Source of the DNA: Paramacrobiotus metropolitanus
Lineage: Eukaryota; Tardigrada; Eutardigrada; Parachela; Macrobiotidae
DNA: 64,000 nucleotides
Assembly: GCF_019649055.1 (NCBI RefSeq)
Contig: NW_026570269.1
Coordinates: 930,001-994,000 of the forward strand
Direction: 5' to 3'
The first letter of the stretch is position 1, and each line of letters begins with the position of its first letter. Both the position numbers and the translations under genes were made by a program. Positions 17,880 through 55,404 of the stretch are shown here, in pieces. Under the pieces are notes generated by a model that had not been told where the DNA came from, searched no databases, and saw only the letters and a program-made list of their open reading frames with translations.

Positions 17880-18680
17880 CGTTACCCTTGCTGTTGAAAC
17901 TGAAAGCGTAGCCAATGGCCGAGCAGCGGCCTAAGCAAGCCCAGCGTAGAGAGCGGAGCAACAAGTGAAACCAAACGGCTCGATTCTTCTTTTTCCAAAA
18001 ACATTTTTTATGGTGTATTTCGAACGTTTCATTATCGCGATGATACAGAAGCGAATAGACGTTTCTACGGAAATCGAAGGCGGAGCCGAAGGCGACGCCG
18101 AGCTGCGGCGTGAGCAAGCGTAGCGCAGCGAGCGGAGCAGCAAGTAAAACCAAAGTCTTTCTTCCAAAAAGATTTTTTACGGTGTAGTTCAAACGTTCCA
18201 TTGTAGCGATGGGACAGAGGCGAATAACCGTTTCTACGGAAATCGAAGGCGGAGCCGAAGGCGACGCCGAGCTGCGGCGTGAGCAAGCGTAGCGCAGCGA
18301 GCGATGGCAAGTAAAACCAAAGTCTTTCTTCCAAAAGATTTTACGGTGTAGTTCAAACGTTCCATTGTAGCGATGGGACAGAGGCGAATAACCGTTTCTA
18401 CGGGAATCGAAGGCGGAGCCGAAGGCGACGCAGAGCTGCGGCGTGATAGCGCAGCAGCGAGCGGAGCAGCAAGCAAGTAAAACAAAGGATTATTATTTAT
18501 AAAAACAAAGGCTTCGGAAACGGTTTTGTCTACAGTTCAGTTCAAATGTTTACTTTTCGTCATGATACTGTACAGTAGCGAGTAATTGTTTCTAAAGAAA
18601 TCGGAAGCGGGGCCGAAGCGACGCCTAGCGGCAAAAGTAAGCGCGAGAGAGACTAGGCGCTGGAAGCAAAGCAGCAAGTA
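17880..18680. repeat. Tandem array of about 165-173-bp units
   Basis: Near-identical units begin with TTTCTACGGAAATCGAAGGC at about 18060, 18231 and 18393 and contain GAGCCGAAGGCGACGCCGAG and a GCGTAGCGCAGCGAGCGGAG-type segment. Diverged partial units flank them (17880-18060 and 18480-18680). Overlapping reverse-strand frames read through the array, so they are repeat artefacts rather than genes. Confidence 0.85.
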
Positions 18681-19633: not shown

Positions 19634-22600
19634 ATGGCCACAAACAACATTCAAGTGGTCTTGGAATTAGGCCACACAGCCCTGTGTCGTCAAGAAGGTA
19701 ATTGTAAGCATCAACAGATAAACGAAATTCCCTATCGCGCTTAGATAGGCACTGAATTTTGCTCTCCAATGCAGGCCATTTGACCCACGACTGGGTGGTA
19801 TTTCTGCGCGGACCAAAAGAGAATCCCAGCGCCATCCAGACCATCATCCGCAAGGTGGTCTTCACGCTGCACCCGTCATTCCAGAATCCGATCCGCGTGG
19901 TGGATAAACCTCCGTATGAGATCCGCGAATCCGGTTATGCGGGTTTCATCCTACCCATTGATATCTACTTCAAGGGACGCAGCGATGACATGCCGTACCG
20001 GATCCGTTTCGATTACGATCTAACCATTCCGCCTAACGAATCCATCAACAGTCTGCAGACGGAGAAGATCACCTTCCGCAATCCCTCGGTGGACTTTCGG
20101 AGGAAACTGCTGGAAGGCGGGGGATGCGGGGTACTGGAGACGGATCTGGACGCCGTGATGCCGGGCAAACGGTTGGTGCAGATGTTCAAGAATCCGGCCG
20201 CGGGACACGGGATGCACGCCGGGAAGCTGGAAGGGATTCCGTCGTTTGAGGAGTTTGCCCGGCTCTTCAAGATGACGCTGTCTTCCACGCAGAAAAATCA
20301 AGCGAAGACGGCCGACGGAAAGCGCATACGGAAGGCCAGTAGTGGGTCGAGTGCCAGTTCGACGGCGGGAGAGAAAGCCAAGCGTCTGCTGGCGCCTGCG
20401 GAGGAAAAGGCGAAAAGGGAGAAGAACGTGGAGACGACGGCCGCGGCAGTGCGAAGCCCGGTGCCAAATGCGCCTGTTGCTGAAAAGAAAAACGAAGGAG
20501 AGAAAAAGGCTGCTGCGCTGGAGTCAGTGGGGAAAACGGTGAAGATTTCCAAGGGGGAAAATCATCGTCCTCCAGGTGAGCGAAACGTGGATAATCAATT
20601 CTTGTACGAACATTAATTTTCCGCAGAATTAGTTTCCTTTTTTCATGTAATTTAGCGATCGAACAACAGCAGTGATTTTTAAATGGGGTTTGCGCTAGGA
20701 AATCCTCTTTTTTGGTTTGCTTATGCTTGCTCCCAATGGGTGGAAAAAAGTGTTTTGCTTTGTGTTTTATTTTATCGGTTGTTAAATTTCCAAGTTCAAG
20801 AATGATTCAAGAATTTTTCTTTTATTCGTAATAATTATCTCTATCAGTCTTTCAAATTTATTGAATGGGGATTCAATGAGACCCTCCTAACTCAAGTTTT
20901 ACTCTCCATAAGGAAAACGCGGTTGGAAACATTTGATAGGATAATTATGGTTCTGCAACAATTGCTTATCTGTGAAGTCAGGCTGGTAATGTTTGCGATA
21001 ATGAGTTGACGATAGAGGTACTGATATGCGATGGCGCTGCGATTTAACATGGAATTAGGCCTATATTCCGTATACGCGCTTCCGATCTAAGTCGTCCCGC
21101 ACTGTTGTAGCTATTGATAGGGCACTATCGAGGTTTAGTTTGTGTCAAATTTGACTTCGATGTTGTTGTAATGCCCCGTAAATGGTACAATAATTACTGA
21201 AAGGCTCATGGATCGTTTCTTTAAATCTGTTCTTTTAAATTGCAGTTAGTGCAAAATGGTTGTAATAGCATTCTAGTGTGACAAAACTTTATCAGAAATG
21301 TTTTAGTGAGGATTCTCGAAAGTTGATGTTTTCATGTTTCCTTTACCGTGAACGTCTTCATTCTTTGATTAACTTCGGTAAAATGAATTGAATTTTATTA
21401 TCAACAGACATGCTTGCTGAATTTTATTTCCAATAAGTAAATAAATGCGATTACAATTGTACTTGCAGGCTGTGGTAATGCCAAAATAGTTGTACATAAC
21501 GTGGACTTGTTTTTAGTTTAAAGCACGTTCTTTAATGTCTTAAGTGAAGTTTAATTGCGAATATGAGGCCATGAGCAATGCGGAACGCCACATCGGTTGT
21601 TTTGCTATGTATCGTCGCAGCCCTGGACGCGCCAATAATTATTATTGTTTGTCAATTTGCCACTAATCTTCTTAATTGTAATTTAGGTTCTATCGGTGCA
21701 CTACCAGCGAAAAGTGAAGTGCAGCGTCCAATAAGCGGTTCCGACCAGCCGCTAAGCAGCAAATCCAATAGAAAGGGTAACAAAACAGCATTATCTCCTT
21801 CAGGCATCAACACATCGGCAGCAAGCGCAACCAGAACTGCCAAGTCCGTACTGCTGCAACCTGATACGAACACCTCCAATCACTCTCACACTGCTCAAGT
21901 GCCTGCACCATCATCGAACAGTTATTCGCGGCCTGATAATAATGTTAATATTCCCGCGGAATCCGATGTATCACCATCGCCACACAACGTTGCCGCTTCC
22001 TCAGCGGATAGTGTGGCTAATCCTGCATCCGCTTCCTTACTGGGCATTATGACTCCGCCAAGTAGGAAAACCACACCGAGGGGCTCCAGCCAACCGTTAA
22101 CACCTCACACTCCCTACTTGTCCGATGAAATGAATGACGAAATTCGGCAGCAGACGAGTGTGCCGCGGATGTTGTCACCGTTATCGCCACCGGAAGACTA
22201 TCCCAATGATGGTTCATCCGTGGATGAGGATTTAGCGCTGACTCCTGGTAAGTTGCCCGTGACCGTTCGACAGAATGTTGCTGATACTTCAGTATGGCAG
22301 CTTTTTTATAATTTTTTTTTTTACTGAGAGAAATACGTATGGAGCTTTATTTAGCTTTAGGCCACTGCATTTTTTAGGCCCTCGACGCGATTCTACGGGC
22401 TTCTCTCCCGCGCAAGGATTGCCAAAAGATGGTTCTTCCCTTCATAATCCTGACAGTTATCTCCTCGATCTGACCAACGATGGCTTCATCTCCGGTATAT
22501 CCGATCCTAGTGACACATCTCCTGAACCGTCCCCGCAACACCGACCACCGGTGAAATCTAAACAAAAGAACTCTTCTAAAACCACACCAGCAACCGTTAG

Positions 22601-24450: not shown

Positions 24451-25894
24451 TCAGTAGAATTTCTTAATAAATTGACAATGTAGGTATTCGCATACATAAA
24501 CACGGAAAATCTTATTCAAATCATTAATGGTGTCATAATGAATGTTTGCCAGGTTATCAGAGTTCTTGTGCCATACGCTGGGAAATGGTGTCGAAATTAA
24601 GTGCAATACTCTTACGCCCTTCTCCACAAACGGCCGATAATCGTCGTCCACCCAGGTCTTGGCCGGCAATGGGTCGTGTCAAAATACACCGATTTTCTTC
24701 CCCACGTTTTTATCAAACTCAATTGCGTCAGCCGTGTCTCTGCCGCATTCAATCGGGCAAACTGTCCGCGAGCATTGTAATAGAAATTCCGCAATGTTGT
24801 GTCCTTTGTACCCAACAAATCCAACAAAACTAGCAAATCCATGCTATCCAGTTCGTCCATGCTGGCATCATTCGGAGCAAAACGGTTACGAGTGTTTTTC
24901 AGCTTTTCCGATAACTTTCTGGCACCGTACAGGGAATCAGTGGCGCTCCACTCGCCGAACGCCTCTTCGCCGTCGAGAAACAGTATCTGTAAGGTCACAT
25001 CGAGTTTCTTATCGCGCTGTTTCAGGAACGGTTGGAGAACGGCCGCGGTGTCGATTATCTGTGCACACGGCACGGCGGAATCCGTGGCTCCGATAAACTG
25101 ATAATATGGATCGTATTTGGAGTCGAAATGACAAGCCAGAACGAGACGCCGCGGCGCACTGGGATCCAGTGTCGCGTAGATATTGGTCATGTTGCGAGCT
25201 CCACCAAACCATGCCGGTGGACTCGCCATGAAATTGTGCTGCTCCACAGTGTATCCTAAACCTTCCATTGTTGATATCAAAAACTGTCAAAAGCGTTTTC
25301 TTAGTGTAATACACGCAAGTTTACAGGTGGTATGCACCATGCACAGTGTTTTGATACATACACTTAAATCAAATTAATCTCGCAGTAAAACTTAGATTCT
25401 ATATTTAGATTTTACGATTGTTTTTCGATTAGTGAAAAACATGTTAATTGAGCTAAATACTTGTGTGTTGCAAATATTTTCTGGTAAATATTGTACTCGT
25501 ACCTTTGTACTTTTGCATTATTAGCACTGCCAGAAAATCGCGGAATGGCGATCGGTTTCAGATAATTCATAAAGCGTTCCTGATTTGAAAGGTCACTGAG
25601 GATCCTGAGAGTGTCCGCATCGTCCACGGTGGCTGGTGCGTGGACCTTCTGTGCCGCCACCCATTCCGGTGCCGCACGCAGCAAGGAACGAAGGACTTTA
25701 CGCAGTGTTGCTTTGTCCTCATGGACGCTATGTTCTTGCGGTCTCAGCTTCTCGGAGTTCTCCAGATCGTGTTGGTACGTGTGGGCACGAAGAGACGACG
25801 CACATAATAAAATGATTATGATCCTGCAACACCGGACGCAGCTGTTTATTTCACTTCGCAGTAGTTTTACTTCGCTATTTAGTTCACTTCGCAT
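24451..25894 (-). CDS. QPCT: Glutaminyl-peptide cyclotransferase (glutaminyl cyclase), with one frame break
   Basis: Zinc enzyme of the secretory pathway that converts N-terminal Gln of peptides and proteins to pyroglutamate. Exon 1 is 25894-25511 and exon 2 is 25283-24451, phase-0 join (AAA|GTACAA to CAG|TTT). The start is followed by a short polar stretch and a hydrophobic run, CCRIIIILLCASSLRA, read as a signal peptide. Conserved elements: LACHFDSKY, the zinc Asp in GATDSAVP, FLDGEEAF with the catalytic and zinc-binding glutamates, SLYGARKL, LLVLLDLLG, DDD before YRPF, VLHLIS, and the zinc His in SVWHK. At about 24650-24670 the frame changes by one base between YFDT and the PLPAKTWVDDDYRPF stretch; both sides align to the same family, so this is an indel error or a recent mutation. 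All active-site residues remain encodable. Confidence 0.9.
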
Positions 25895-27804: not shown

Positions 27805-30332
27805 TCAGTTCCATTGTGGTTGATCCTCAAAATCATGGTGACCTTTCTTTAGCAGTTTTCTGGTGTTTTCGTCAGTGTTTTTAGCACGATTTCTATAGCC
27901 AGAAATTACTTTGCCATAATTACAGTAGCTGGTCATTGATTCCTTTCCTATCGGCAAGGACAAGGGAATACCGTCATTATAATTATATAATTTTAGAATA
28001 GCGCAGCCAATAACTGTTCACAGTTTTGGTGACGATATTATTGTTTAATACTGATTGTTGAGGCTGCAACAACCTAAAAGACCTTAAAAATTGCAAGCAG
28101 TGGTTTTAAATGCTTTCTTACCGGCAAATTAGTAGTTCCCTTTCTTGGCTATTTCTCCACTTCTGAGTCAAAAATTGGCAGGAAAAGACACATTTAATTA
28201 AGTATTTACCAAATTTTTGCTGCCGAACACCCGAATGCAGAAGTCACGATAATTTAATCTTACCATTCGGCGGTTTTGAAACCAAACTTTAACCTAGAAA
28301 AGCAAGCCATGATGGAATACATTAATAATTGGTCCGCTTATTTTACGTCAGAGCAACTGCTAAATAACAACAAATGCGATTTCCAGAAATTTATTTTTAA
28401 CTGGTATGTATCTTAATATTACTTTCAAAAATAATGGCTGCAAAATTGTTTAGTTTTCTGTAGCAATGACTAGTAAACTGTACGTGCATGAAATATTTTT
28501 TATACTCCTGTACACGCCCAAAGGACACGCGCCTCCTGTCATACGCCCAAAGGATAAACAAAAAATGCGCTCGAGTTAGTAGTTCTTGTTTGTGTAGCAC
28601 ACGTTTATATTGGATTTAAAACTGTACATTGGTTTACCTGGGAATCTTTTAACCCCAGTGTCTCGGATAGCTTTTTTCTGTCTGGTTTGCTGATATATTT
28701 TTGCGTCTGAAATCGATCTTCCAGACGCTGACGTTGTAGATCAGAAAATACCGCTCTGCGGGATATTCCACGCCTGGGCTTTGGTGTTTTATTAGACCAT
28801 AACATTGGATTGCGCGTCCATGAAGTCGTTGAGGTCACCACTGGCCGCACTAAGTCTAAGGAAACAAATTACCGTTCCTAATAATTATTTCCAATAGCGT
28901 TGAAACTATAACTTTGCACACACTATCCGTACCCGAAAAATTAACTGCTGTAGAACGAAGGTGACACTAACTATTTAGTAATTTTTATGCAAAAATTGTA
29001 GAAACCAGTACCTACATAAGTCATAAGCCATGAAAACTAGCAATTACATAAAAAAAATATTTCGATACACAGAGTTCATGTACTTAACTGCTATAGTTTT
29101 CAAAGCTTATGTGCGTCCCGGTTCCTACAATTTTAGCATTACAACTACTAGGTAGTAGTTAGTGCTGGAGTGCGCTGGTAAAGAAACAGTATACGCGTAC
29201 CGGTTATGTTACGGCTCGATCCTTATGTGTCTGACTTTATTAAAATGTAATGATTGAGCTCAGATTCTTGATTAGTTTAATAAATAAAGAAAACGCAGTT
29301 GAGTTTAATTTGTATAACTACTTAGGGTATCATGCGTTTCTTGACTGCAATTTATAGTACATGTGTTTTGAAAAGAAACGTTACCTGGACAGTGTTTTGG
29401 AGACGACAAATGTTGAGCGGAATCATTTAACTCTGAACTATATTCCAAGTTTGTATGAAGCATAAGATCGTCAAGCGCTGTAATTGTGGACAGTTTTGTG
29501 TTTGGGAGTATTGTAAATGCTCCATGCTCTGTAAAACAATTCATCTGCTATTTTACCAGCCGACTTATTAGAATATTGCAAGTGCAAAGCGCATATATAT
29601 ACTTTTGCAATCGTATTAAGTTTACGTAGGAGGAGACGGTTTGACAGTAAGGAGGTTACTCTGGCGCAATGTGTATTGTACATGTTGTTACACTTGCAGT
29701 GCGCTCACCATTGTAAAACATAGGATAAAAGACACTGCCTAAATTTTCAAATTTATTGATTTTATTCCTTTTGGGGGTTTAGAACTGGACACATAAAGGA
29801 TTAACCTGAAGACAATGGGCAGAAAAAATATGCAATATTTTAAAGATTACCGAAAACCAAACTTCAGCGCTTTTTTAAAAATGAAACTGTTATCAGATCA
29901 AGATGATTGTACCTCATTAGTTTGTATGGTGAAGTACTGTACGAGTTATTAATAATACGCATAGTAACTTACTTCTCAATCCGGAAGGAATAGGATTTCT
30001 GTTTAGCACTAAACTGCTATCAAACGCGTCTTGCAGCGCATTATGGCGCGCCAAATGCTGCTGTAGAGCAGTGATGACCTTTACGTCACCATGTCGAATT
30101 TCTGGCTTCACAACGTTGACGCTTGAGATAGAAATGCCAGGAAATGTGCACCAACGGGCCATTTAACAGGAAGCGGTACCTGCAGATTATTATTCATTGG
30201 CAGATCCATGTCAGCCGGAATACACAACGAAGAACGAGATCCCGAAACAGTTTCTTCTTGCGCGACATCTTCAAACCACTCAAACTCGTAGCCGTACAAA
30301 TCTCCACCAAATAACAAATTCGCATTTGACAT
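27805..30332 (-). CDS. DBX: DBX-class homeobox transcription factor, complete
   Basis: Homeodomain factor of the Dbx class, used in nervous-system patterning in animals studied. Exons in transcript order: 30332-30180, 30105-29973, 29528-29385, 28855-28638, 28293-28264, 28162-28122, 27892-27805; about 268 residues. The homeodomain is split over exons 4-6. It shows RRAVFSDLQRQRLEDRF, QKYISKPDRKKLSETLG, LKDSQ, then VKVWFQNRRM and KWRNSQERELL, which is the Dbx signature (KYISKPDRKKLA, KWRNSKERELL). The invariant WFQNRR with Asn51 is intact. The C-terminus is short and acidic/aromatic (DFEDQPQWN). The first intron is the weakest call: only 74 bp with a poor acceptor (GTGAAG), chosen because it keeps phase 0. 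An indel or an alternative start in exon 2 is possible. Confidence 0.92.
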
Positions 30333-32048
30333 TCTCCTTAACTTTCACAACACAGCAACCATTTAAGCAGTAAACTATTTATGCTTGTTTGTACAGCATA
30401 CGAGAACATCAATGCATTTAGTGTGCATAATTTCGACAGTATCAGTTTGCCGCATTCACATCGCATACAAACAAATTAGGGTGTAGTAAAGTAAGCGGTT
30501 CTCCCAACAAGATCGATTACCAATAAAACTAGAATGTTGATCTTAATAAATTATTGCACTTGTAAGGAAGATCTGAAGTTTATATGTTGCATTTCGAATT
30601 TGCTCGAACTTGCTGGTATCTACAAACTTATTCTGAGATGAAGTATGCATGAATGTTCAGATCATGCATACATACAGCTCCTTGTGTAAATGGCAATTTG
30701 TTGTACAATCACAGCTACGGCAAATCATTGTGGAAGCCTCCCATTTGCGCTAACGCTAAAACTATTAGCGTTGTTGTCACTTCCATCTGTTGGCCAGAAG
30801 CAAACGGCAAAGCAATATTAGGATTATACATTAAGCTATCATGATCTTTATTTTCCCTGCCTGGAAAAGTTTGGCGAGAGCACTGCTGATAGCTCTGGTA
30901 TTGCAACACTTCAAATTTCATCATGGATTTTTAAAGATTCCTGGGTAAATTGTAAGAGGTGACCGCAAGAAGCAAGGACTGTAACCTAGTGCCGGATAAC
31001 ATAATAGAACCGTATTCGTCGTCTTTGGGCTGTCACTATACGTGTATGTTCACATTCCATATTGTAAATGACAGTTTGAGTAAATACCAAGCACGGGTAA
31101 GTACCAAAACTGCAATCAAATATGTAATAGGTGCCATATCTGCAATAGTAAAAGGGAAGTTTCATGCACACAATATTAATTTAAAGCAAGAGTATTCAAA
31201 GTTTTTTAATTGTCTTATTGCCTCCGTAATCTATCAAGTAAAACACAATCATTGTGTATGGTATCTAAAAAAAGCGGAGTTTGCTAACGGTTTTGTTGAA
31301 TTACAATACATGTCATGCAGGTGAAAGTTTTTCAGTAATTTACTACGAGTACCGTACTTACATACATGCGCGGGAACGACATCGAGAATTACTGAATATT
31401 TATATGTACTATACAATACGTAGGTTGTACAGTCGATTCTGTGTCATCATACAGAAACTCTAGTTTGCCCCGTTTCATGTTGGTGAGTTTAAAGTTGCCA
31501 AATTTAATACAAATGTCGGTTGTGATTGTGAACTTAAATAGTTCTGGAACGATTTTCACTTTCAAAAGTATTTAACATAGTTAACAACCACCACTACTGG
31601 TCCACTAGGATAGTATATGTAACAAGATTTTCAATAAGGCGCTGAACTGACGCAACTGCCGCCGGTAACATAGTGCCACAATGGTATATACTATATATTC
31701 CCTAGTTTATTTTCGAATATCATAAAGCGGTTGTTTTATACCTGCAGCTATGCTTGCCAGTTGCCGCTATGATTTTATTTAGCATCATGTCTGAAAAATG
31801 CAGTTGCGTCTACGGCAGAGACCCTGAAGCATAAACCTTTAGGCAGTGCTTTGCGTTCTTTACAGTTTTATTTTTGTGTGGTATTAGGAAGTTGCGCATC
31901 CTCGCATGGACTGTTAGGGCGATATCATAATCGACCGGTTTAGTTCGAATTCGAGAATGCATTTTTCCGTGTTCAGATCCTCGATAAGTTAGTGATTACA
32001 ATGTAGGAACTACGGTTGTGGAAATTGCAGGTTTTTGCAGATTAGAAA
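30333..32048. other. Divergent intergenic region between DBX and the TMEM63-like gene
   Basis: The two flanking genes point away from each other, so both promoters should lie here. A 121-codon ORF at 30959-31324 has no recognisable family, no signal peptide and ordinary intergenic composition; I do not call it. Nothing else is seen. Confidence 0.45.
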
Positions 32049-35000
32049 ATGGTTGAGGTAGACACGATAGAGAAGACGGTGTCACACAGCACCATAATTA
32101 ATGGACACAATGACACGTCTTCCATCACCGTCCAGCATACGGATGTACACGGAAAACACGATTATCTTGCTCCGAATAATCACCAACTGAACTCTCCAGG
32201 ACTTTCTCAAGCGCCGGTTTTTGTTGGCGGAACTATTCCTGCAAGCAGTTTTGAAAATGTTCCGGGAAATATTATCGGGAATGTGGTACCGGAAAAGAAT
32301 GGCATACGCCATGAAGACGATGTTGCTGCATCATGGGAAGACGAACGACAGCACCCTGGCGGTGAGATTTCAAATGCAAAAGATATACAGTGAGCTGTTG
32401 GCTGAGGAATAGCTATTAAATCCTAATTTCGGTTAACTGCGTAAAGAGATAATCAAGAAAAACAGATATAACCCTTACTAGCACTTGCAAGTCTTAAACT
32501 GACGACTAAATACGCACGTTGCGACCAAAAATACAGTATTACAAATTTAAGGCGCAAATAACGCTTGATAAACTCCCTAAGTACTCATGTAGTATTCATT
32601 TCCTTGCGCATTTTGAAGATAAAACTTGAGATTAATAAGTAACACAATATTACTTCCTCGAACAGATGCATCCGCTGAAAAGAATACCGGGGCTAGCGAA
32701 AAGGAGACAGAAAATCCGAACGTGGTAAACCTTCCTTCGGTTGTATTCCTGCCAGGACACAGTCCAATGAGGCACTCTGTCCCAGATCGAGCAAACACCA
32801 ACGGGCCGCGAAAGGAGCAAGTTCCCGGTATTTCCAGAACCGTTAATATACTGTAATGAAAAGGCTAAAGGATTAGTATTTTCTATTGATGCAGGCGTTG
32901 AATTCCGCAAAATGTTGTTCATATTGTTAATAATTACAAATCTGTAGATCATGAAATATTAAATAAACTACTTCATTTGCTCGTACTTATTTATGTATAT
33001 AGATAAAATATTTTGTTACTATCAAATATATAATATGCATGTTATTATCAGTACACACTATACAGTATACGTATGCTCGCATGCATTTTGCAGTATTCTC
33101 CTTTTCGCAAATATTTCTTTCTGCAGTGGGATCAGCCAATTCACCAAATAAGAATGGTTTTCTGGGCGCAGTTTCTGCCAGTTCAGAAATTCCACCACAT
33201 TTTGCTCCATCACCTGAAAATGCTCCACAACTCTTTGGCGTCCCTGCTGCGATAACCGGGGAAAGAAAAGGCTACTTTCAAGGGGAAGCGGTAACGACAG
33301 AGCACACGATTTCCGCTCCTGTTCAAAATGCCGCCGAGACTTCAGAAGCTTCCAGCTCTTTCCCAGCGCATCCGCCTAAAATCTCGAACCAACAGCCACC
33401 GCCCGGTTCAAGGATTTTTTATCGCGACCATATGAATATTCCAAATATGGGTGGAGATAGGCCGGCAGGCTTCGGGAACACTAATGCCCTCGGGCAGGAG
33501 AGCGATATTGGTGGCCATGTAAACAACATAAATACTGCAGTCCAGCCTGGCAATGCGAGGCCGACAACAGTGGCAACTGCTGCGAATGCCAACCAGCAGG
33601 AATCACCATATTCTCAGCGCTACGAGACTGCTGTTCCTTACGTTAGCGGTAAACCTGAAGCACTGGAAGACACTAACAGCGTGGAAATTAAAAATAACCA
33701 ACATGGAAATATGCCAAAGCCGATAATGACAGAACGGTCAGTTCTAGAAAAGCCGCAAGCAGTGCGCAAAATTGGGAACATTTCGCAGTTTGCTCACGAT
33801 GGTTCACAGCCTGAACTGGTCAAGCCAGCAAATGTTCGTGAAGATAACGGCAAAGCGTTTCCGGTTCCTGTAACAAACAAAGAAATACCAGAAAATGCAG
33901 TGGACGCGCCTTGGCATGCGTCAAACCAACCAGCAAAATCTGAATCAGAACCGGTAAAAGGGCATGGCCATCGGGATCAATTCCATGCCATACCTCCAAA
34001 GAATCCAACACATGGTATAGCTTACGACAACGGCAAACTAACAGCGCACGAATTACCGCCGGAAGGAAAGAATATGATATCGGACGATTTCAAAAACAGT
34101 GCATCAAATCTGCAGCCAGAAAAACCTGTCCAGAAGGGGGGATTATCAGAGAGAGAAAATGCAATAAGTCATCCTGTTGCTGAGTTTCCAGTGCAAACTG
34201 TAGGAACGCTAGTGCATACAGAAAATACTAACAATGGGAACAAAATTTCTGAGCCTCCAAGGCAACGCCATCCTTATCACCACAAAAACCTCCACGGATT
34301 CAACGAACATGCCCAAAATTTTCCAAAACACGATGAAGTAGAGCTAGACAGAAACACACCTGATATCCCGCCTGGAGAAGCAGCTGTCGATGAATTTGCC
34401 GATCATGCACTGGGCACCGGTAATCAGGAAAAGATCGACCAAAATCCATCACGAAAAGAAATTGGCGACGGCGGAATGTCACAAATTTTCGATGCAAAAC
34501 GTGCTCCCCCTAAAACCACGCAACATGATAGCCGTCCAGATGAAAACAAATTTTTAAACAAGTTGCCCCAAGGCGGAAGAGAAATGATACCCGATTACGG
34601 TAAGAGTGGCAAACAGACACCGTCTGCGAAACCGCTAGTTTTACCGATGTCACTTACTTCGCCGCTAGAAAACGATAATTTCTGGCCGGAAAAGAAGATT
34701 AATGACAAAACTGCTCATCATCATAAATCCCCTCCATTTGATAACGCTACATCGGCTGCTGGGCAAAAACCGCATCATAAAGTCAATAATACTGATTTTC
34801 CAAATCAAAATCAGCAAACTGCAGAGTTTTCAAATTTCCCAGGGGAAATAGGTATAGCGTATCTTAACGCAGACCATCCTACAGCGGATAGTATGCCGCA
34901 GAATAATGCGCGACCTTCCCGAACGAAACCCGAAGTTTCTTTTGTCGACCACTATCATCACAGGGCCAGAAATTTTCCATCCGATGAAGGGATTGCGATG

Positions 35001-38000
35001 GATCAAGAGCACAAACCAAGCCACGACAAGAAACCTGTTGCCGCTGAGCCGCAGTCTGAGACACAACCGGGAGTGCTGGCATTTCCCCAGTTGTACCCAG
35101 TCGGCCCCAAGCTCAAAATACATTAAGCACGCAGTTAGCATCGGTGAAGAATGTTCCGCTTTTCGACGATCATCATCACAGAGCGCAGAATAATCAGGAC
35201 GATGAATTATGGAACGAACGACCGCACAGTGTCAGGGTTCATTATCCCAAAAATCAAGAGCGGGCGAAAGGTCAACATGTCGCTGCAGCAATTTTCCCAA
35301 CCATATCGGACCATGAACAACTGAATCGCCCATTTGGTGGCGATACCGAGCAGTACAACAATGAATTTGTGTATTTTCCGGATAAAAATCTGAGTCAGCG
35401 CAAAAAGGGCGAAATTCCGCATGAGACGGGTTTTCCGCTAGGGCATACGATACATGACGAACCCGATTTATATCGTCATCGCATTAAACCGAACTCACCG
35501 TCAGGAAGCCAACTCGACCACGATGTGTTTGGAGCAGGTGAGAAAAATACTGCAGCACTGGCCGGAAGACAAACGAATAAACATTTTGCGGCTGCTCCAG
35601 AGATGACTTTTCCTCCACCACAATTTTCCGAATCAAGCGTAATTGGCAACAACGAAGGCAACAACTTTGGGCAGGAATCTGCATCAAACATCTGGGATGA
35701 CTCTTTTCATCTCGAGCCTAAAGGTAACGCTAAAAACAGCTTGGCCAATGAAGCGTGGACTGGAACTGAAAATCGTAAGCTGGCCAACAGTCATCCGACT
35801 GTTGTACCTGGTGCTACACTAACCGGCTATGACTCTGATCAAGGAATTCAACCAGAGGAAGCTGATTTTGATCACAGTGACGAAGAGTTTAAAGATATGC
35901 CAAAGGAAACTGGTACCATGAACCAAAACGTACTCAGTAAAAGATTGAGTAATATGCCACAAGATGGAGCTCGGCCACTTGTTTTACCGGCAAACGAAAA
36001 CGGCAACGTGAATCGGCATCGAAATCTGGCTTCGTCGGAACCAGCAGGCGAGCACGATACGGTTGGTGTGATACCAACCAATGAGCTACCCAGAAAATTC
36101 GCGAGAAATGACGAGGAATTCCAAGAAAGCAACCGTCCGTTTTTAGGGGCTTTTACTCCAGCAGTCAGAGCAGACGCGTATCAGCACAAACCCCACGGCC
36201 AGAGTGCTAATTACAAGCCAAACCTGTCAGTTAACGAAGAAGAAATTTCGCCGCCTCCGCCAATTACATCCTTTGGGAATTGGAATCAGAGTAACGGCCA
36301 TCGCACTACCAATTTTATTCCAGAATACAAGCAGCAACGACTAAGTTTTTCGCGACCTTTACCAAATGACAATAGTTACATGAATTCCAATGAGTTCGAT
36401 CGCCCTGCATATAGCGTGCCAAATGCCGACCACTATCACCACCGTTCGGTCGCAAGTGACAGGCAACCATTCAACGGGATAGGAGACAACAGCAAAAATT
36501 CCCATGCGACAATGGATGGAAAGGGTCAAAGCGGGCCAAAAGGGACAGTCGTATTGCCAATTCCCATCGCATATATGCCGGCTATCGAGCAAATGAACGA
36601 CTCGCCATATGTAAATGAACCAGTTGATCATTATAGACATCGGCATGCGAAACCTATTACTGGCTGGAAAGCTCCTGAAATGGACTACGAAGAGATTCCT
36701 GCAAATAAGCAACTTCGGTTTGGGCCGATAGCAGGGCATCGCGAAGATACCGAAGCAATGCCTGAGGCATCTGAAGATCAAGGTTCATTAGTTTCCATGT
36801 CGGCTTTGCCGCTTTTCCCTCGTGGAAATGATAACGCTGAATATCACACACCAAATCCTCAATCACGGCATTTTCCAAACAAAAATGATAATTACAGCGA
36901 TGCGAAAGCGATCCCAGTACAGCCAGTTCCCCAGACAGCAGATATATTCAAGCTGCCCAATGAAAACCAGAACGACAAGGACGCGCAACATGGTCAGAAG
37001 CTTCTTCATCCACCCCGACATATGGGTCCACCGACTGACCCTTATCAGCACAAGCGCAATCTCAATGGCGGCGCTAGCCACCCTGCTTTCGTAGCCAACA
37101 ATGAACCGTATAGCGAGCCTGATAATTTAGCCAACCTAGCCAGATATCCTGCAGATTACAGCAACGCACATGCTCCTCCGGATCGTTCCTTTAAAATGGC
37201 TCCTGATCAGTTAAAAAATGTACCTCCTGGCCAAAGACTTCCTGACAAGCCTGGTGCAACTGAGAACAGGGCTGAAGAAGAAACTCCTGATCAGCTACCA
37301 CTAACTCCGCATCACCATCACCAGCCAATGTCCAACTTCATGCTCCAGAACACGGGACTACCTAATCCCAGTGGGGACGAAAACATCAATACTGCAGCTG
37401 ATGAAAGAATGGAAAACTTAGGAACACCGAATCATTTTACGCAGCCGGCGGGATTTTCACCAGATCCGACAGCTGACGAAGAATTACAGCAGATCGGCTC
37501 GTCTAACAATTATCCAGCTGCAGGCACTTATAAACATCGTCCTCATGGTCAACTTTTGGAGAGTTCGTTACATGAAAATACCCAACCGGAAGGCGGTTCA
37601 TCACACATTAACGGTTACCCATTGTCAACTCACAAAGCAGGACTATCCGCCTTTCCACCAAACATTTATAACTCGGAACATCCAAGAGCTAATCCAAATT
37701 CTCACCACGAACAGGGAAGGACGATTACCCCGCCTCAATTGCCGGCAGGTCAACGCTATCCAGTTTCTCCCAGGAAACTTGAAGAACAGCCAGCGGTCGC
37801 TCACGAGCCACGGGCCTTCGATGCGTCTCTTTCATATGGATATCAACATATACCACCTTACTTGCACCATGGTCAGGGAGAGAACTTTGCTGATTATCCT
37901 ACTGACTCCTTCGGCAAAACAGAAAAAACAAGAAATACAATTTTTGCGCCTATTGTATTTCCGCAATCAGCCGCACCTTCTGCTGGTGAAGCAGATTCCG

Positions 38001-41000
38001 AGCCATTGTTTTCGGAGGAAGATTTTCCACATTTTCAGCCAAGGCCGGGAAATGTGCCAGTTAATCAACGCGGACCACAAGACGCCAAACCTGCGCTGGA
38101 AAACCCGAATTATTTCGATAACGAAATGCACCACGTAAACCAAAGACTGAACACTGCTCCCTCCGCTCGACCTTGGGACGTGCATGGTGCTACTGCGATA
38201 TCTGAAGAGAACGGCCATCCGCCATTCGAGCCTGACCATAGAAAATTCGTCGTCTCACCGTCAGACGAACACTGGGCACAGGATCATCCAAGAAACGTTT
38301 TCGTTGGCCACACCTCTCCAGACTATACCAAGAATATTATGGACAACAAATTTCGAGATATCGATCGAGAACCAGGATATCAGAGTCCGGGCATGCAAGC
38401 AGAGTACCCGAATCCAGAGGTGCCCAAAGGGGCTTCAGGACTAGAAGGTCATGGGATGTTACCGGATAAAGGGAATGTGGACAGATTGTATGGAGAAGAT
38501 AACCCAGTACTAAGGAATCCTGATCCGAAATTCCACCCGTATCGTCAACCTTTCAATGAGAAAATTACCTGGACGCAAGCTCCAATAATTAAACCGGTAG
38601 ATTTCGGTGGACATCCATCCATCGTTTCCGCGTTCCAGGGCGATGACAGCGCCGGTTTAACTCATGACCGTCAATCAGGACAAGATCTTGACCGCACGGC
38701 AGACGCTGCGTTTCAAACTGCACCGAACAACCGAGTGAGTCCCCGCGATGATGTGAAAGGTCATAGTGGCCGAGCGAAGCCAAACAATGAAGATGCGATC
38801 GGCAGACACCGAGACGCGACTCCCTCGCAAAAAGCTGATTCGAAAACACCACTCGCCGGCGGAGCGTTCTTCCCTTTGAAATCTTCGAATACGGAAAGAG
38901 CAAAGTCCCGTCGCTCCGAACCTGAGGCAGACCAACGACCAGTCTCTCCCGCATCGGCTGGTGGTGATGCAGCTGCGTATCAGCCGTACGCGTATACCGA
39001 GTACCCAAATCCTCCCCCCGATGCCACGGCTGCATGGGGGAATAAAACGTGGAAAGGTGCTTTACCAGCACTGGCAGCGATGTCGTCCCCTTTTGTAACT
39101 GACCTGTACAAACACAATCCAAATGCGACCTCCATGTCCAGTAAAATGGACATGTCCACACAGTCCTCACAGTCGCTCCAGGAATTAATGCAGTGCTCCA
39201 TGAGCCACAGTTCTACCGTCGGAACTTCCATGATTGGCTACAATTTAATGGTGTCCTTTGTTTTATTTTTGGTAGGTGATAAATTAAATCCATACAAACG
39301 TGTTTCATTTTGAACTTAGTGACGCTTTTAACTTGAGAAATTTATTGCAGATTGGAATGGCTATATTTTATTTTGCAACAAGAGGCGCCAATAAACAAGA
39401 GCGAAAGCAGCTTCTGGAGCGACGCATGAGCACTGGCTCTGAGTAAGTGGACAAAGTAAAGGTCATCTTCCGTAACAGTAGTTCCGTTTCCACTCCTAGC
39501 GATCCGCCATGCTTAATGGTTATAAGTATTAATAAAAAAATTATCCGAATTTGGCTTATTCAGACTAATCATTTCTGTTTGCAGCTGGGTAAAAACATTT
39601 TATTCTCAAAAGATGGTAGAAGAGAAACCAACCGGGGTGACACGAGCTACATCGACAAGAACCAGCTCGGAATCTGCTAGCGATGTTGTCAATGATGCGT
39701 CTTCAGCGGAACTCGGATTTTTCCTTCCCGTCTGTAAGAAACATTCAGTCAACAAGCTAGCAAAGTGAATATTAATCGTTTCAACGTTTGTTCCGCAGTT
39801 TGGTTTTGGAGAACTGAAGAGATGGAGCGACGCTGTGGCAAATCGGCAACTCAGTATCTTCGGTTTTCGGAGTACTTGATTGCCTATGCATCCTTAGTGG
39901 TCATTGCTTCCACGCTTATCATTCTCCCGATCAATCTTCACGGATCCTTGATTACCACCAGGTTGGAGTTTGGCCGGACAACTATTATCAACATTGATCC
40001 GCAGTGAGTTTGATAACCACATCAGAAGCTAGTTGAGTTAAAAGTGTCAAACTATCGCACCTGGATGCTCGAAACTGCTGTAATGTTATTTATGGGGAAA
40101 TTGCAGATCAAATATTTTATGGATCCATGTGATCTTTTCGATCTTTTTGTTTCCGCTGGCGTTATTGTTTGCCACGAGGTTCGTTCAGACGTTTCGCGGG
40201 TACGGTAAACCGGATCGGTCAACAAAGACATTGATGATAACTAACTTGGGAACGCGGTACGCGTCGGAAGACAAAATCCGGAGACATTTCGAGTAAGTTT
40301 GCTAGATCTAACATGTAAGTCTACTCCCTATATTTAGAGTTTGCTTTTGCAGTTCTTATGTACGAGTACCATCTCTATAGCTAAACATGTACAAGTAAAC
40401 GTAAGACGTTTTGTATTAATATTTAGAGGGGCTTTGTGTTTAGGGAGGGTCATCCGGACGTTGAAGTCTCCAAGATTAACCTATCTTATCATACTAATAA
40501 ACTTCACCGGTTGGATAAAGAACTGTAAGTTTTTTAGTTTAACCGGCACATATTGTGCGCACCATATGTCAGGTTTTTATGGGAATTTTCGCTAGCCTAA
40601 CCAATATCGACCGCAAGTATTTATTTAATTTACTACATGAACCTTTTCGAAAGCGTACCAGTTACTGGTGAAAAGAATTGTTGTTTGCTGTTAATACGAT
40701 GCGTTTGATCCAGTAAGCATATTTCTGTTAATTACAGACAACTGTGCATCTCTTGTTCGAAGTACTATGAGAAAACTTTAAGACCGGGGTCGGAGCCGCC
40801 GGTATATTCTAGAGATAACTTGTGCACGCGATGTTGTTGCTGCTGCTGTGACGTTGCGGTAAGAAGCCTCGTCTGGAATAACTCTGCTTTTAAGAACGCT
40901 AATTTTCCATTTTTTCCACAGATTGATGCTGTTGAATATTACAAAAATCGAGCTGCAGAGCTGGAAATACGGATTGAACAACTGATTGATCGACCCAGAC

Positions 41001-43318
41001 TTCCCAACGCAACTTTCTTTGTTACTTTCGAGGAAGAAGAAATGGCAGAAAAGTAAGTGATATGCAGTAATCTTAAGGTGAAAATCCGGTAATTATCGAG
41101 TATTTTTTTTAAAACGCATCATTCAAGTACAGTAATTTGAGAAGGTCACAAACCTGTTTATGCTGACAGAGTCGCAAAACAATATCGTAACCCGATGAAA
41201 GCACTGCACAGTCCACGGACGGAATTCTCCAAGGAATTGCAAACTAAATCGTGGTCTGCTCAGTTTGCACCTTTTCCGGATCTAATAAAATGGTAGCCGG
41301 AACTTACATTAAACTGTTTATACAGAGTGCGCACACAAAAGTGGTAAATTATAATTATGCGTTTCCTTTGATGCCGCTAGGCAAAATTTGGAAACTGGAG
41401 GCTTACATTGGTGGATTAGGGCGATTGTTTTGAACGTTCTCCTGTTCTTGTTTCTCTTTTTCATTACCAGCCCGATCATTATCCTAAATGCTCTTGGCGT
41501 TAGTCAGTGGGCAAAGAATGTAAGTCCTTAATCGAGCCCAGGATTGTTGTAGGATTTTTCATACTTGTTCACTTTTCGCACACATCCACATCTTTTCTCG
41601 GGCATAGTAGTCTCAGTTTGATCAGAATATATAAATAACCCACTTTACTTGTTAGTTAATTGCCGATTGACCGATTCATTAATATTCTTAAAACTACATT
41701 AGCTGACGATGTTTGTGCAGTAAATACCGTATCTTTATCATTTTGTATACTTTTATGAATTTACTAAACGTTTTATTTTGCAGCTCGTTATTTTGAATCA
41801 AGTTATTCCGGGCATCTTAATGGTGGAGCTGGGATTCATTATTGGCGCTCTTATGAAATCTGTGACTATGCAGACCCGCTACCATGACAAGTAAACCATA
41901 TGTATTGTAACTTTGACCATAACCAGTTTGCGACATTTGTATTGTACCAGATACAAGAATAATTAAAGGCTTTCAAAAACATTCTGGAATTTTAGAATTC
42001 GCGAATTTATGGTTGCATTGAAAGGAACCTTCAGCTACACCTTAATTGCGCAGCTTCTTCTGCCAACGTTTGGTCTAACAAGGTAACAAACTTCTCTTAT
42101 TTTTAAAACGATATATACCGAGCAAGCTTAGTGGCATATATTATTTAAATGTTGTATCTGTATTCAATTTGTTCCAAAAGTGAGCTATATTCTACAGAGT
42201 TGTCTGTAAAACAAATATTTTCGTATCAAATTGATACATTGTGCCGTCTGTTTCTAGTGCGAAGGCCCTTTATGACTATTTAAAACAGTCCAGCAGTTCT
42301 TCCGGACAGTTCAACTGGGCGTAAGTGCTTGTATATAAAGTGATTAATAATTTTTGTTCAAATTAAAACAATTCATGTACCCTTCGTTATTTTGCAGTTG
42401 TTTGTTCCTTCCTGATTACGGGATGGTTTTCGTGACCTTTCTTATATTCCAGTCGCTATTCGGCTCCAGCCTGGTTTTTTCCCGAATATTGGAACTGCAA
42501 ATACTGGTGTTGAAGCGATGCAATGCTCGCTCAACGCCGAACGTTGGCTTCTATCCCAACGAAAACAACCATTCACATTTACGGCGGGATACTCTCGAAA
42601 TTTGGTGCTCTTTGCCGTCACGATTGTTTTTGCTTTTGTTTCACCTTACGTTTCGCCATTAGGTACGGCAACACATTAATAATGTCGTCTTTTCTATCGA
42701 AGAAAGAATATTTTTCTTAACGCTCAAGTTCTTGAAATAATTATGTTAGCTGTATTTATTCAGCAACGTATTATGCAGTTTTACATCCTGTGCACTTTAT
42801 AGGATTGTTGGCATTAATGATGAACCATGTCGCGGAACGATACAGCATCTTTTTCATTAACCGGCGCTCCGAAACACCAAATCCCGTCCACCGGAGTGCA
42901 GTTAATATATTTTTATTTTGTGTGCTGCTACAGCTGATCATGATGATATTTTTTACTGCCATCCGTGTCGGAAACGTTGGCACTGGAGTTATGTTACTTG
43001 CCGCCATTGTGTACACAATTGTTCTACTATACATTTCCTGGCGGGAGGAGTTTGGTAAATTTCAAAAAATCCATTCGACAGCCATTGGAAGCAAATTTCT
43101 GGTACACATTGACGAAGACGATGATGAGGTCAGGATTGGTTGTACTCTGTCGATAGCTTGAAATCTGAATAGAGATACGTTTACAGGGCTCATTTGATCC
43201 CATGGCCGAATCACAAGCATACGAAGCTCCCATCCTGCGCCGGTACGAACTATTACGACCTTTAACATCCAAGCGACATTCGTCGTGGCGAGAATCTTCT
43301 CCCCCTTTGCCAGATTAA
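32049..43318 (+). CDS. TMEM63: TMEM63/CSC1-like (OSCA family) channel with giant N-terminal disordered tail
   Basis: Mechanically/osmotically gated cation channel of the OSCA/TMEM63 family. Exons: 32049-32361, 32666-32827, 33127-39271, 39351-39442, 39585-39733, 39799-40003, 40107-40292, 40444-40524, 40738-40858, 40922-41052, 41170-41292, 41381-41519, 41784-41890, 41996-42082, 42258-42320, 42398-42662, 42803-43128, 43187-43318. Channel evidence: EFGRTTIINIDP, the ILPINLHGSL helix, a Cys cluster before DVAIDAVEYY, WWIRAIVLN, FFITSPIIILNALG, CLFLPDYGMVF, FAVTIVFAFVSPYVSPLG, and MMNHVAERYSIFF. The first helix is assembled across the splice at 39271/39351 (MVSFVLFL + IGMAIFYFAT), which ties the 6.1-kb exon to the channel. 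Upstream lie about 2,200 Pro/Asn/His/Gly-rich, low-hydrophobicity residues; in this family the N-terminus faces outside. No signal peptide is evident. Frame breaks occur near 35060-35125 and 42515-42545. Confidence 0.92.
33127..39271 (+). other. Single 6.1-kb exon coding the disordered tail with recurring Y-x-H-[KR] motif
   Basis: The exon codes about 2,050 residues rich in Pro, Asn, Gly, His, Asp, Glu and Lys, with few aliphatics or Cys. A short motif close to D-x-Y-x-H-[KR] recurs along its length: HPYHHK (about 34270), DHYHHR (34947), DDHHHR (35166), DLYRHR (35466), DAYQHK (36174), DHYHHR (36427), DHYRHR (36627), DPYQHK (37036), GTYKHR (37525), DLYKHN (39101). Between motifs the sequence is not alignable by eye, so this is a motif-spaced disordered region rather than a tandem domain. 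The reading frame changes from frame 3 to frame 2 between about 35060 and the TAA at 35124; the motif is present on both sides. Confidence 0.85.
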
Positions 43319-52269: not shown

Positions 52270-53358
52270 TTAAAGGAAATGGTGTATGCCATAAACAATA
52301 AAGGTCATAACCGTTGGAACGAACATTTGAACCGCTGCTGACCTAACCGCCTGTGCGATAACGACAATCTCGCCATTCTCGTTCTGAATGTGATAGTCGT
52401 GCTCCTGAACCGGAAGGTGTGTCAGTTCCAGGATCTCAGGGGTAATGCTTTCCGTGGTGGTTTTGGTGCAGCGTTCCTTCCAGCGAAAATCATGAAAAGG
52501 AATTATTTTTGTCGGGTTGTCCGAATCCGTTAGATCGGTGACCTTACACTTGATCTTGACTTCACAAAGAAAAAAGTCACCGTTGGACGTTGTGCGATCG
52601 GAGTACGAAACAAAGCCACGCCCAGCAGAGCCCCATAACTCTTGATGATGATGTAGCCATGTGTGTAGCCAGTGACCGGGATCATTGTTATCGCACGAAC
52701 AGGGAATGGTGGAACCGAGCAGCCCGACACATTGCAGTGACTCCGTGCGCATGACGTGGTCGAATAATCCCTGCTCGAGCACTGTGCCCGAGGGAAAGTG
52801 TTCAAACAAAACAGCTTCCAATCCATTTAAGCCGTCTAAAAATTCCTTAGGGATTTTTGGGAAACTGGCCAAGTAGTCAAAGGCTATGTCCAGTAACTTG
52901 AGGTTGTTCATGTTTATAAACGGACTTCCCAGATCCAGTTTTGCCGGTCTGGTCCCGTTAGCTTCCGGAAACGGGTTCCAGTGTTTAATGATCAGCGTAT
53001 GGATGTATTCCGCCACATCTTCAAACAAGTACTGGTCGATGAGGAAATTCAACCGCGGAATGTACAGTTTGACCGGCAATTTACATGGGCGATCTTTGTA
53101 CAATCTGAAGGAATTCTTCAGGTCATCGTAGGACAGGTTGTTGCAAAATATACTATGGTACGGAGCGTTGTCCACTTCCCTTATTTGATCGAATAAAATA
53201 CAAGCGTCGCTTAACATTTCCGCCAAATACGTTCCTTCTTGGTTCGTATTCGTACACGGGTCAACCGGTACTGAAGTCACCATACGAAAACGCGAGATCA
53301 TGATTACTGAAACCGTAAGAATAAACACTAAAATACGAAATTTACAAGACGAATCCAT
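52270..53358 (-). CDS. Secreted or GPI-anchored LRR-like protein, paralogue A (intronless)
   Basis: One uninterrupted frame of 362 residues from the preferred ATG at 53358, which is directly followed by a signal peptide (KFRILVFILTVSVIMI); an in-frame ATG at 53397 would add 13 residues before it. The mature part has irregular leucine-rich stretches (NMNNLKLLDIAFDYLASFP, LNGLEAVLFEHFPSGTV) and then a Cys cluster, IPCSCDNNDPGHWLHTWL, reminiscent of an LRR C-terminal cap (CxCD…W). A further pair of Cys (FLCEVKIKCKV) follows. The C-terminus is a hydrophobic tail ending within a few residues of the stop, which suggests a GPI signal. It is clearly related to the ORF at 59536-60702. Function unknown; the fold assignment is inference. 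Confidence 0.62.
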   Translation of the reverse strand: MDSSCKFRILVFILTVSVIMISRFRMVTSVPVDPCTNTNQEGTYLAEMLSDACILFDQIREVDNAPYHSIFCNNLSYDDLKNSFRLYKDRPCKLPVKLYIPRLNFLIDQYLFEDVAEYIHTLIIKHWNPFPEANGTRPAKLDLGSPFINMNNLKLLDIAFDYLASFPKIPKEFLDGLNGLEAVLFEHFPSGTVLEQGLFDHVMRTESLQCVGLLGSTIPCSCDNNDPGHWLHTWLHHHQELWGSAGRGFVSYSDRTTSNGDFFLCEVKIKCKVTDLTDSDNPTKIIPFHDFRWKERCTKTTTESITPEILELTHLPVQEHDYHIQNENGEIVVIAQAVRSAAVQMFVPTVMTFIVYGIHHFL

Positions 53359-55404
53359 GGTTAAGACTAAACCTTGTGTGTACGTTAGAGCCAACACATT
53401 GTTAAAAGCAACTGCGAACTCTAGTATTATTGGTAACGATCAACAGTGTTGAGCTACGGTACAAATGTGTACTGGAATCGTTAGATTAATTTTTGCGAAA
53501 GCAGCCTCCATCCGTTGAATGCATGACCTGCTAGTTGTGCGAAATTTAAACTTTATTGTTTGCGGTTGGGAATTATAATCTCAAAAGCTTAGATAAGTAC
53601 CGTTAGATAAATAATCCAGGTACCTGAACATGCGCCAACCGGAGCCGAACCTGATATAATTCGAGTTAAATAAGTGATACATACTGTATTCTGTAACAAC
53701 ACGACTTACTTGCTAAAACAGTGGCGTACTCTGTACGAATCTGTAGAGGCTTGCATGTACCGTGTAATTACAGTACCTCAAAAAAATTTTACCACTTACC
53801 AGGTAACTGTTATGATGTTAAAAATGTGAAAAGGTAATTTTTTTAAACATTACCTGCAGGCTGCAGCTAGCATTAAGGCTTTAAGCATAAAATGAATAAA
53901 ACTTCCTTCTTTTGAATACGAGTGTGCACGCAATTTGAGTGTAACCATTGAGAAAACTATTATTCACCGCTTCACTCTGCACAGGAAGATGCAGCGAATT
54001 GATTGTTCGTTCGCTCTGTAGTCCTCTGTACAACGGAACTGCCAGAAAAATATTTAATTTGTCAAAACAGTTAATCAGATCTTGGAGTTCGACAGTTTGT
54101 AGCGCTTTGCCACAGTGCAAAATGAACTCGTACTGTATTTTAGTATTTGTAATTAATTACGTTTGGATGCAGAATCACTTATAACAAAAGTATTCAAGGA
54201 GTGAGTTTACATTTAGTAGACTGAATGCTTCACGGCTTGCCTGCAGTTAGCAACAAAGCAGCGCGTAACAACTGGTGCCAGGTTTTACTTTATACTGTTA
54301 ATCCGTTTTGGAGTATGACTTATAACTAGTACTACATATCTGTATTGCAAACCATATAACGCGTTAATTTTGTTTGCAAATTTGAAAGATGGTATGGACA
54401 TTTAATTAGCAAATTTTGTAATAAACCAGTCAAGCACCAGTGAAGTGAATGTGACCTTAATACTCGCGCAATGGTATTATTTTTTATAGGGGTTTTTAAA
54501 TTGTTTTTTAAATTGGCATCGATCTCGTTATGCTCGTATTAGGAAGTAATAATTTCGGCTGCTCCATGGTAATTGCAAAACATATTGATAAACCGATATG
54601 CATAGCGAAAGGTAAAGTATTATCTGAAATCAAATTTTCCATGGTTGACCTTTCCGATATCATGTTTCACGTTCTACTCTGTATATTACGTACGCGGTAT
54701 CAAAATCGAAAAGGTATCGGCTCATCGTGACAGATTTAGGGCTTTGTGCAGGCCACTTGATAAGCTTGTTCGAATTTATGCTTGTTGACATACATAGTGG
54801 AATTCAATGTTTTGTGAAATATTATTATGCATCCATACTGTAGTTATTTGCCAAGTGCACGAGTTGTCCTGTAGATACGACTTGCACAAAGATGGGCAGT
54901 GAATGGCGTATGACTTTACACAACTGCTGAAAACTAGCTATCGTAATAATGACTACAGCAGTTTATGAAAAACACCTTTCATTATTTTTCATGCCAACAA
55001 AAAAAAATAATTCCAGTACCCTCGTATTTGTTTTAAATGCCGGATCCATTTAAGTTATTATCCAACTTGTTGGAAAACTTTGGTGCCGCGTTATGGCAGT
55101 ATGTAAAAATAAGGATGTGAACAAGCCATATTGGTCGCCAAATTTGGCGACCAATCAAATCAAAAAATTAAATCAAAACCAAAACTTGATTTAAATCCAT
55201 TTGATTTAAATCAAAACTTGCAAGGTATTTAGGCAGTTTACTGGCCTTCAGAGCCTTAAATTTCATCGGCAACAGCATACCTGAAGAGTTGGAGGTGACC
55301 TTAGTTAAACTGCTTCTAGGTCCTCAAACAGCGATAGTGAAAAATGCTTAAACAGAGTAGTGACCTTTGGTATTATGGCGCAATTGATGTCAAACTAGCA
55401 GACC
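53359..55404. other. Gap between LRR-like paralogue A and the decayed gene
   Basis: No conserved ORF. At about 55145-55220 there is a low-complexity run of GATTTAAATCAAAAC words in both orientations. Confidence 0.4.

Follow-up and report, generated by a model that had tools for sequence, protein, structure and literature searches.

The TMEM63 and OSCA proteins are channels, considered to sense force by way of the membrane (PMC10636204), and structural accounts place the N-terminus outside the cell in both TMEM63C (PMC10636204) and OSCA1.2 (PMC6235563). The first transmembrane helix, TM0, is described in TMEM63C as a peripheral helix coupled to the gate helix TM6, on which the bulky gate residues F568, F569 and Y572 of TMEM63B are located, and a double-cysteine TMEM63C in which TM0 and TM6 are linked is reported to have the highest activity, which is lowered by dithiothreitol (PMC10636204). 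TM0–TM6 coupling also figures in the gating proposed for the plant channels OSCA1.1/1.2, which belong to the same fold family (PMC10636204). A short N-terminus before TM0 is the usual feature of OSCA/TMEM63 proteins, not a criterion of the fold. Here we describe a TMEM63 paralogue of the tardigrade Paramacrobiotus metropolitanus in a 64,000-nucleotide stretch of contig NW_026570269.1 (positions 930,001 to 994,000 of the forward strand; hereafter the window). On balance, the first coding exon of this gene appears to have been extended by ~2,160 disordered residues, such that one mRNA would encode one chain of tail, TM0 and channel. This assessment covers the one-chain fusion and not a gating role for the tail.

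The channel, with 11 hydrophobic segments, occupies positions 39134-43318 (+) of the window. Its model comprises 791 letters from the ATG at 39134, including an XX that joins the two pieces of a broken exon, and residues 123-727 match TMEM63B (8ehx) best among Protein Data Bank (PDB) chains (phmmer, E 4.9e-70). The XX-joined model scores 87.4, 31.5 and 36.8 bits for PHM7_cyt, RSN1_TM and RSN1_7TM against curated cut-offs of 27, 27 and 28.7, while in the unjoined pieces RSN1_7TM is unlisted for the first and reaches 20.2 bits, under the cut-off, in the second. By hydropathy only, 11 segments of 19 residues with a mean of at least 1.2 give the count expected of TM0–TM10. One of these segments depends in part on a stretch of 13 residues that is absent from TMEM63B; the acceptor ending at 42802, with the exon starting at 42803, drops this stretch and by eye fits better than 42764. 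The TMEM63 identity proposed in a first-pass annotation, made from the DNA letters alone, is thus borne out by three Pfam domains above cut-off, the TMEM63B match and the segment count. The gene resembles TMEM63A/B/C (CSC1-like) in these domains, in its 11 segments and in a TM0 that is N-out by the charge rule; it differs in the ~2,160 disordered residues that precede the customary start and in having only one of the three gate residues identical. OSCA1.1/1.2 are more distant in sequence (6oce, E 4.7e-6; 8ymm, E 1.4e-4), and the sections of the OSCA accounts available to us mention no long N-terminal tail.

TM0 reads MIGYNLMVSFVLFL followed by IGMAIFYFAT, the two halves being parted by a phase-0 intron, as the first-pass annotation had noticed. 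Its hydropathy is 2.33, and the flank charge is 0 over the 14 residues before it and +3 over the 10 after it, which fits an N-out orientation. The annotation had also stated that the family begins TM0 early in the chain, in agreement with the positions of V39 in TMEM63C and V44 in TMEM63B on this helix (PMC10636204). A genome search finds TMEM63 matches at the window gene and at two places on contig C5, which we take as two genes. All three genes carry the phase-0 TM0 intron at the same place, the paralogues being split as FA/ILL and LA/IAI. Between the first ATG in the open frame, a predicted start, and this intron the paralogues have 64 and 72 codons; the window gene has 48 codons from the compositional junction described below. 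Upstream of the first sister gene there is no + strand open reading frame (ORF) longer than 135 codons within 7.3 kb, and upstream of the second a frame that by eye is chaperonin-like ends ~470 bases before the ATG; the giant tail is not seen at either sister gene. Because the TM0 intron is common to sisters with apparently short N-termini, the giant exon very probably closes with an authentic TMEM63 first exon, the tail being the derived trait.

The tail is largely encoded by one exon of 6.1 kb that opens directly into TM0. Within it, 35060-39271 holds 1404 stop-free codons in the TM0 frame, compared with a longest ORF of 249 codons in 300 first-order simulations, and between 35129 and 39061 the other two frames contain 36 and 94 stops. 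The exon had been annotated as a single coding unit; it does look protein coding in the TM0 frame but is not one open frame, since frame 0 is open to 35123 and frame 2 from 35060, with a break at 35060-35126. Joined across this break and with its two upstream exons, the tail has 2,206 residues to the TM0 intron and ~2,160 to the junction, so that instead of the usual short N-terminus the long model places ~2,192 residues before TM0. The giant disordered N-terminal region in frame with the channel, which the annotation had proposed, is upheld. Its composition (11.1% Pro, 8.4% Asn, 5.2% His, the last amounting to 115 residues; 275 acidic and 199 basic residues) includes no Cys in the first 2,150 residues, and its mean hydropathy of 0.388 falls below the charge-hydropathy boundary of 0.426, as in disordered chains. 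Seven copies of the motif [DN]xYxH[KRN] lie in the tail, one upstream of the frame break and six downstream, whereas 5000 shuffles contain 0.07 copies on average and never more than 2. A wider pattern, [YH][HRQK]H[KRH], has 11 copies, and none of 3000 shuffles exceeds 3. A second element, [AVILF]{2}[LFIV]P, is weaker: 8 of 3000 shuffles reach its eight copies, and 9.7% of random placements bring it as close to the His motif. We make no use of either.

The tail has no recognizable relatives within the searches made. Pfam yields no family up to E 1 for 32049-32360, 33129-35123 or 35060-39271 (exon 2 left out), and the PDB no chain up to E 1 for 35129-39127, the sole tail piece compared. In the genome, up to E 10 and leaving out exons 1 and 2, 35060-39271 matches itself alone (2 candidates scored) and 33129-35123 matches itself and one further place at E 5.1 (6 candidates scored); viral contigs hold no relative of 35060-39271. 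In titles and abstract openings of a single open-access library we found no description of a TMEM63 with a giant disordered N-terminal tail, nor anything there on TMEM63 in tardigrades. TMEM63 and CSC1 are likewise absent from the main text of a transcriptome study of P. metropolitanus (PMC11191345). The rarity that the annotation attributed to this architecture holds as far as the Pfam, PDB and genome comparisons and the two sister genes reach.

Two small exons precede the giant exon in the long model and splice in phase. Their GC content by codon position (.61/.38/.42 for exon 1 and.62/.47/.51 for exon 2) resembles that of the remaining tail (.59/.43/.38 and.60/.44/.41); the corresponding values for the channel are.46/.38/.47.

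The change points for codon-position composition and amino-acid composition both fall at 39128, and none of 300 codon shuffles reaches the observed codon-position value. The composition suggests that near this point a disordered coding region became joined, with the frame kept, to the start of an ancestral TMEM63. Because no stop lies between tail and channel, any tail transcript that keeps exon 3 runs into TM0, and since the last tail motif lies three codons short of the junction, a separate tail gene would have neither its own stop nor its own 3′ end there. The sharpness of the junction could be taken to mean that the assembly wrongly linked a TMEM63 gene to a disordered-protein gene unrelated to it. 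Such a join is most improbable: it would lie inside an exon with the frame kept, which a chance join achieves about one time in three, it would have to hit two coding regions with no stop between them, and the tail motif persists to within three codons of the junction. The fused open frame is very likely real at the DNA level.

Two frame breaks, (a) in the tail exon and (b) in the exon of TM6-TM7, neither of them mentioned in the first-pass annotation, interrupt the model. At break (a) the frame can be restored by 36 GT-AG pairs, such as 35073-35134 (62 nucleotides, nt), none of which has a GTAAG- or GTGAG-like donor; for break (b), no frame-restoring GT-AG intron was found in the range tried. 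Among 88 HSP70 matches in the same genome (59,583 nt), three contiguous pairs change frame, each by one missing base (C2 near 3564221, C72 near 211248 and C6 near 858054). These breaks are of the same kind and direction as those at the TMEM63 locus, which indicates that the assembly, described as built from Nanopore R9.4 reads with Illumina polishing (PMC8277472), may drop single bases. HSP70 matches are themselves numerous in this genome (the 88 counting exons apart), lying on C13, C72, C83 and other contigs with clusters on C13 and C72. Of five DM-domain matches in the genome, two lie on C5, at 2.135 and 2.163 Mb; if C5 corresponds to scaffold 5 of the published P. metropolitanus assembly, this agrees with the DMRT gene pair reported there, for which a synteny region of 1.96-2.37 Mb is given (PMC11191345). 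If both breaks were instead real mutations, the locus would be a decaying gene, either a pseudogene or a segregating null allele, and the position of break (b) in a conserved channel exon with no resolving intron is what such decay would leave. Yet the 15 channel exons, break (b) apart, contain no in-frame stop before the final one, the 1404 tail codons contain none, and both breaks share their direction with the HSP70 breaks, so that decay is quite improbable. We favour the reading of both breaks as assembly errors, or of break (a) as a weak intron.

Several observations weigh against a tailed channel encoded as a single chain. The gate positions of TMEM63B hold V, F and F in the alignment (by eye, the same positions in the two paralogues hold I, F, L and V, Y, F), and TM0 lies beyond the phmmer-aligned stretch, its identity resting on position, hydropathy and the common intron. 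Synonymous codon preference does not separate the tail frame from the other frames or from non-coding stretches; as it is uninformative, coding support comes from the openness of the frame, the motif and the composition. At the HSP70 rate, ~9 kb of coding sequence would be expected to hold ~0.45 breaks, so that the two seen here are a moderate excess (probability of at least two ~0.08), and some of the HSP70 breaks could themselves be real mutations. N-glycosylation sequons number 10, where shuffles average 18.2 (1.7% of 5000 shuffles are as low), a shortage that is readable either way and does not point to one side of the membrane. The long model opens at 32049 with MVEVDTIEKTV..., in which no hydrophobic signal peptide is seen by eye. 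Finally, the change point is broad, 39080 scoring 23.2 against 23.3 at 39128 by codon position (39080 and 39125 are the next best places), and an in-frame ATG at 39134 stands two codons past 39128, as a short TMEM63 would need.

This last coincidence of junction and ATG is the core of a two-product alternative, in which an internal promoter would give a short TMEM63 from 39134 while the long transcript would give a disordered protein, ended by the stop that lies beyond 39271 when the intron is retained, or by alternative splicing, so that the channel would rarely or never be tailed. Seven Met among the 46 codons from ATG 39134 to the intron, a stop at 39311-39313 upon intron retention, and sister genes whose apparent starts lie 64 and 72 codons ahead of the corresponding intron are all in keeping with it. 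Spliced leaders would be a further source of short mRNAs, and no tardigrade report of them was found by title in the open-access literature. In contrast, the tail frame runs open straight into TM0 without a stop of its own, a retained-intron protein would end in a partial hydrophobic helix, and at 79 nt the TM0 intron is short, its splice sites being given in Table 1. We regard two separate products as rather unlikely, and tail and channel are probably joined in one mRNA.

The first-pass annotation had placed the tail outside the cell, on the basis of the extracellular N-terminus of the family, a location that is less probable than the fusion itself. A human census states that translocated flanks longer than ~100 residues use Sec61 and those shorter than ~50 an Oxa1-type insertase, and that large N-terminal domains of G-protein-coupled receptors are typically preceded by a cleavable signal (PMC13220792). 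On this account, an extracellular tail requires either a second start, at 33081, or an unusual insertion. The ATG at 33081, absent from the first-pass annotation, lies in intron 2 in the frame of exon 3 and opens MHFAVFSFSQIFLSAVGSA-NSPN, which has the appearance of a cleavable signal with a 12-residue mean hydropathy of 1.75 and G-S-A at its end. An in-frame ATG with the frame open to the exon occurs at 2 of 17 acceptors, and only that at 33081 adds a non-channel hydrophobic run; a polypyrimidine tract can, however, imitate a signal-like run of this kind, and use of this start presupposes a promoter within intron 2. Further upstream, over 28000-32040, two other ATGs, 30412 and 30841, are signal-like candidates.

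With no signal peptide at the 32049 start, and with Sec61 described as the route of long translocated N-terminal tails (PMC13220792), a fused protein might instead keep its 2,200 residues in the cytosol, TM0 remaining uncrossed and the tail serving as a tether, scaffold or brush. TM1-TM10 of OSCA1.2 are reported to align with TMEM16A, TM0 being extra (PMC6235563), and since TMEM16 has the same ten helices and no TM0, leaving TM0 out may be tolerable for the TM1-TM10 core. The strong hydrophobicity of TM0, its positive charge on the inner side only, the signal-like start at 33081 and the importance of TM0-TM6 coupling for TMEM63C activity (PMC10636204) argue against a cytosolic tail. We hold it unlikely; being a variant of the fusion, its probability overlaps with that of the one-chain reading.

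If tail and channel share one mRNA, we judge the chances slightly better than even that the tail is exoplasmic. It would enter the endoplasmic reticulum (ER) most plausibly from the 33081 start, by a signal peptide via Sec61, and less plausibly by TM0 alone; once on the ER route, it would face the outside or the lumen of an organelle. Drosophila TMEM63 is reported in lysosomes (PMC10940159), and if the window gene product were lysosomal too, its His-rich lumenal tail would be at acid pH and its charge would change.

Because the tail is attached to TM0, which is coupled to TM6, a chain of more than 2,000 residues would be placed to bias the gate. With its 115 His residues and its direct attachment to TM0, it would pass tension on to the gate, pulling if the repeated D-x-Y-x-H-[K/R] motifs bind a partner, or exerting a chain pressure that depends on crowding, dehydration or pH. 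Whether an exoplasmic tail takes part in gating we consider evenly balanced, and the tether and crowding-sensor roles that the first-pass annotation found attractive are inferred. A complete scheme, in which a signal peptide delivers a ~2,000-residue tail with about a dozen His/Tyr-rich sticker motifs to the outer end of TM0 and its tension, hydration or protonation sets channel opening, is speculative and probably not right as a whole. Coordinates of the features are collected in Table 1.

Table 1. Features of the TMEM63 locus (window coordinates) and of its sister genes (contig C5).
Feature	Position	Strand	Remarks
Exon 1 of long model	32049..32361	+	104 tail codons including ATG, plus one base; phase 1, donor GTGAGA
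Exon 2 of long model	32666..32827	+	162 nt of tail; phase-consistent, donor GTATTT
Alternative in-frame start, signal-peptide-like MHFAVFSFSQIFLSAVGSA	33081..33137	+	spans exon 3 acceptor
Exon 3, giant tail exon (6.1 kb)	33127..39271	+	ends in first part of TM0
Frame break (a), tail exon	35060..35126	+	read as one missing base, or weak intron, e.g. 35073-35134
Last tail motif DLYKHN	39101..39118	+	ends three codons before compositional junction
Compositional junction 39128 and in-frame ATG 39134	39128..39136	+	putative fusion point, possible short-TMEM63 start
TM0, first part MIGYNLMVSFVLFL	39230..39271	+	from position, hydropathy and the shared intron
Phase-0 intron within TM0	39272..39350	+	79 nt; donor GTAGGT, acceptor TTGCAG
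Channel exons 1-5	39351-39442, 39585-39733, 39799-40003, 40107-40292, 40444-40524	+	
Channel exons 6-10	40738-40858, 40922-41052, 41170-41292, 41381-41519, 41784-41890	+	
Channel exons 11-15	41996-42082, 42258-42320, 42398-42662, 42764 (or 42803)-43128, 43187-43318	+	last exon includes stop
Frame break (b), TM6-TM7 exon 42398-42662	~42510..42560	+	read as one missing base
Sister TMEM63 genes (approximate)	C5:97100-101510 and C5:1256170-1260640		apparently short N-termini, same TM0 intron

Elsewhere in the window, tandem arrays occupy 12050-12648 (34-base unit), 15717-16122 (124), 16382-16731 (123) and 17988-18473 (169). By eye, and provisionally, we take 46-2473 to be an SLC6-type transporter, 6896-8734 a protein kinase, 19756-20616 a YEATS/AF9-like gene and 24612-25286 a glutaminyl-peptide cyclotransferase-like peptidase. 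On the minus strand, 52270-53439 and 59536-60765 are long single-exon ORFs, 389 and 409 codons between stops, whose products by eye look like related secreted leucine-rich-repeat-like proteins.

Outside the TMEM63/OSCA family, yeast Ist2 (TMEM16 family), described as a scramblase of the TMEM16/TMC/OSCA superfamily, has a disordered stretch that links two membranes; in contrast to the N-terminal tail here, this linker lies at the C-terminus, in the cytosol, and spans a few hundred residues. Proteins of the polycystin-1 type place a channel-like core behind a very large extracellular N-terminus held to sense force, which is made of folded domains with a signal peptide, unlike the disordered tail of the window gene. 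The tail occurs in one of the three paralogues found, and its tail-less sister genes are therefore built-in controls. If the proposed scheme is true, the locus would be an extreme case for moving a long N-terminal tail across a membrane and would offer a natural test of whether the TMEM63 fold can be driven by tether, crowding or drying: a force-gated channel of an anhydrobiotic animal that carries its own polymer sensor.

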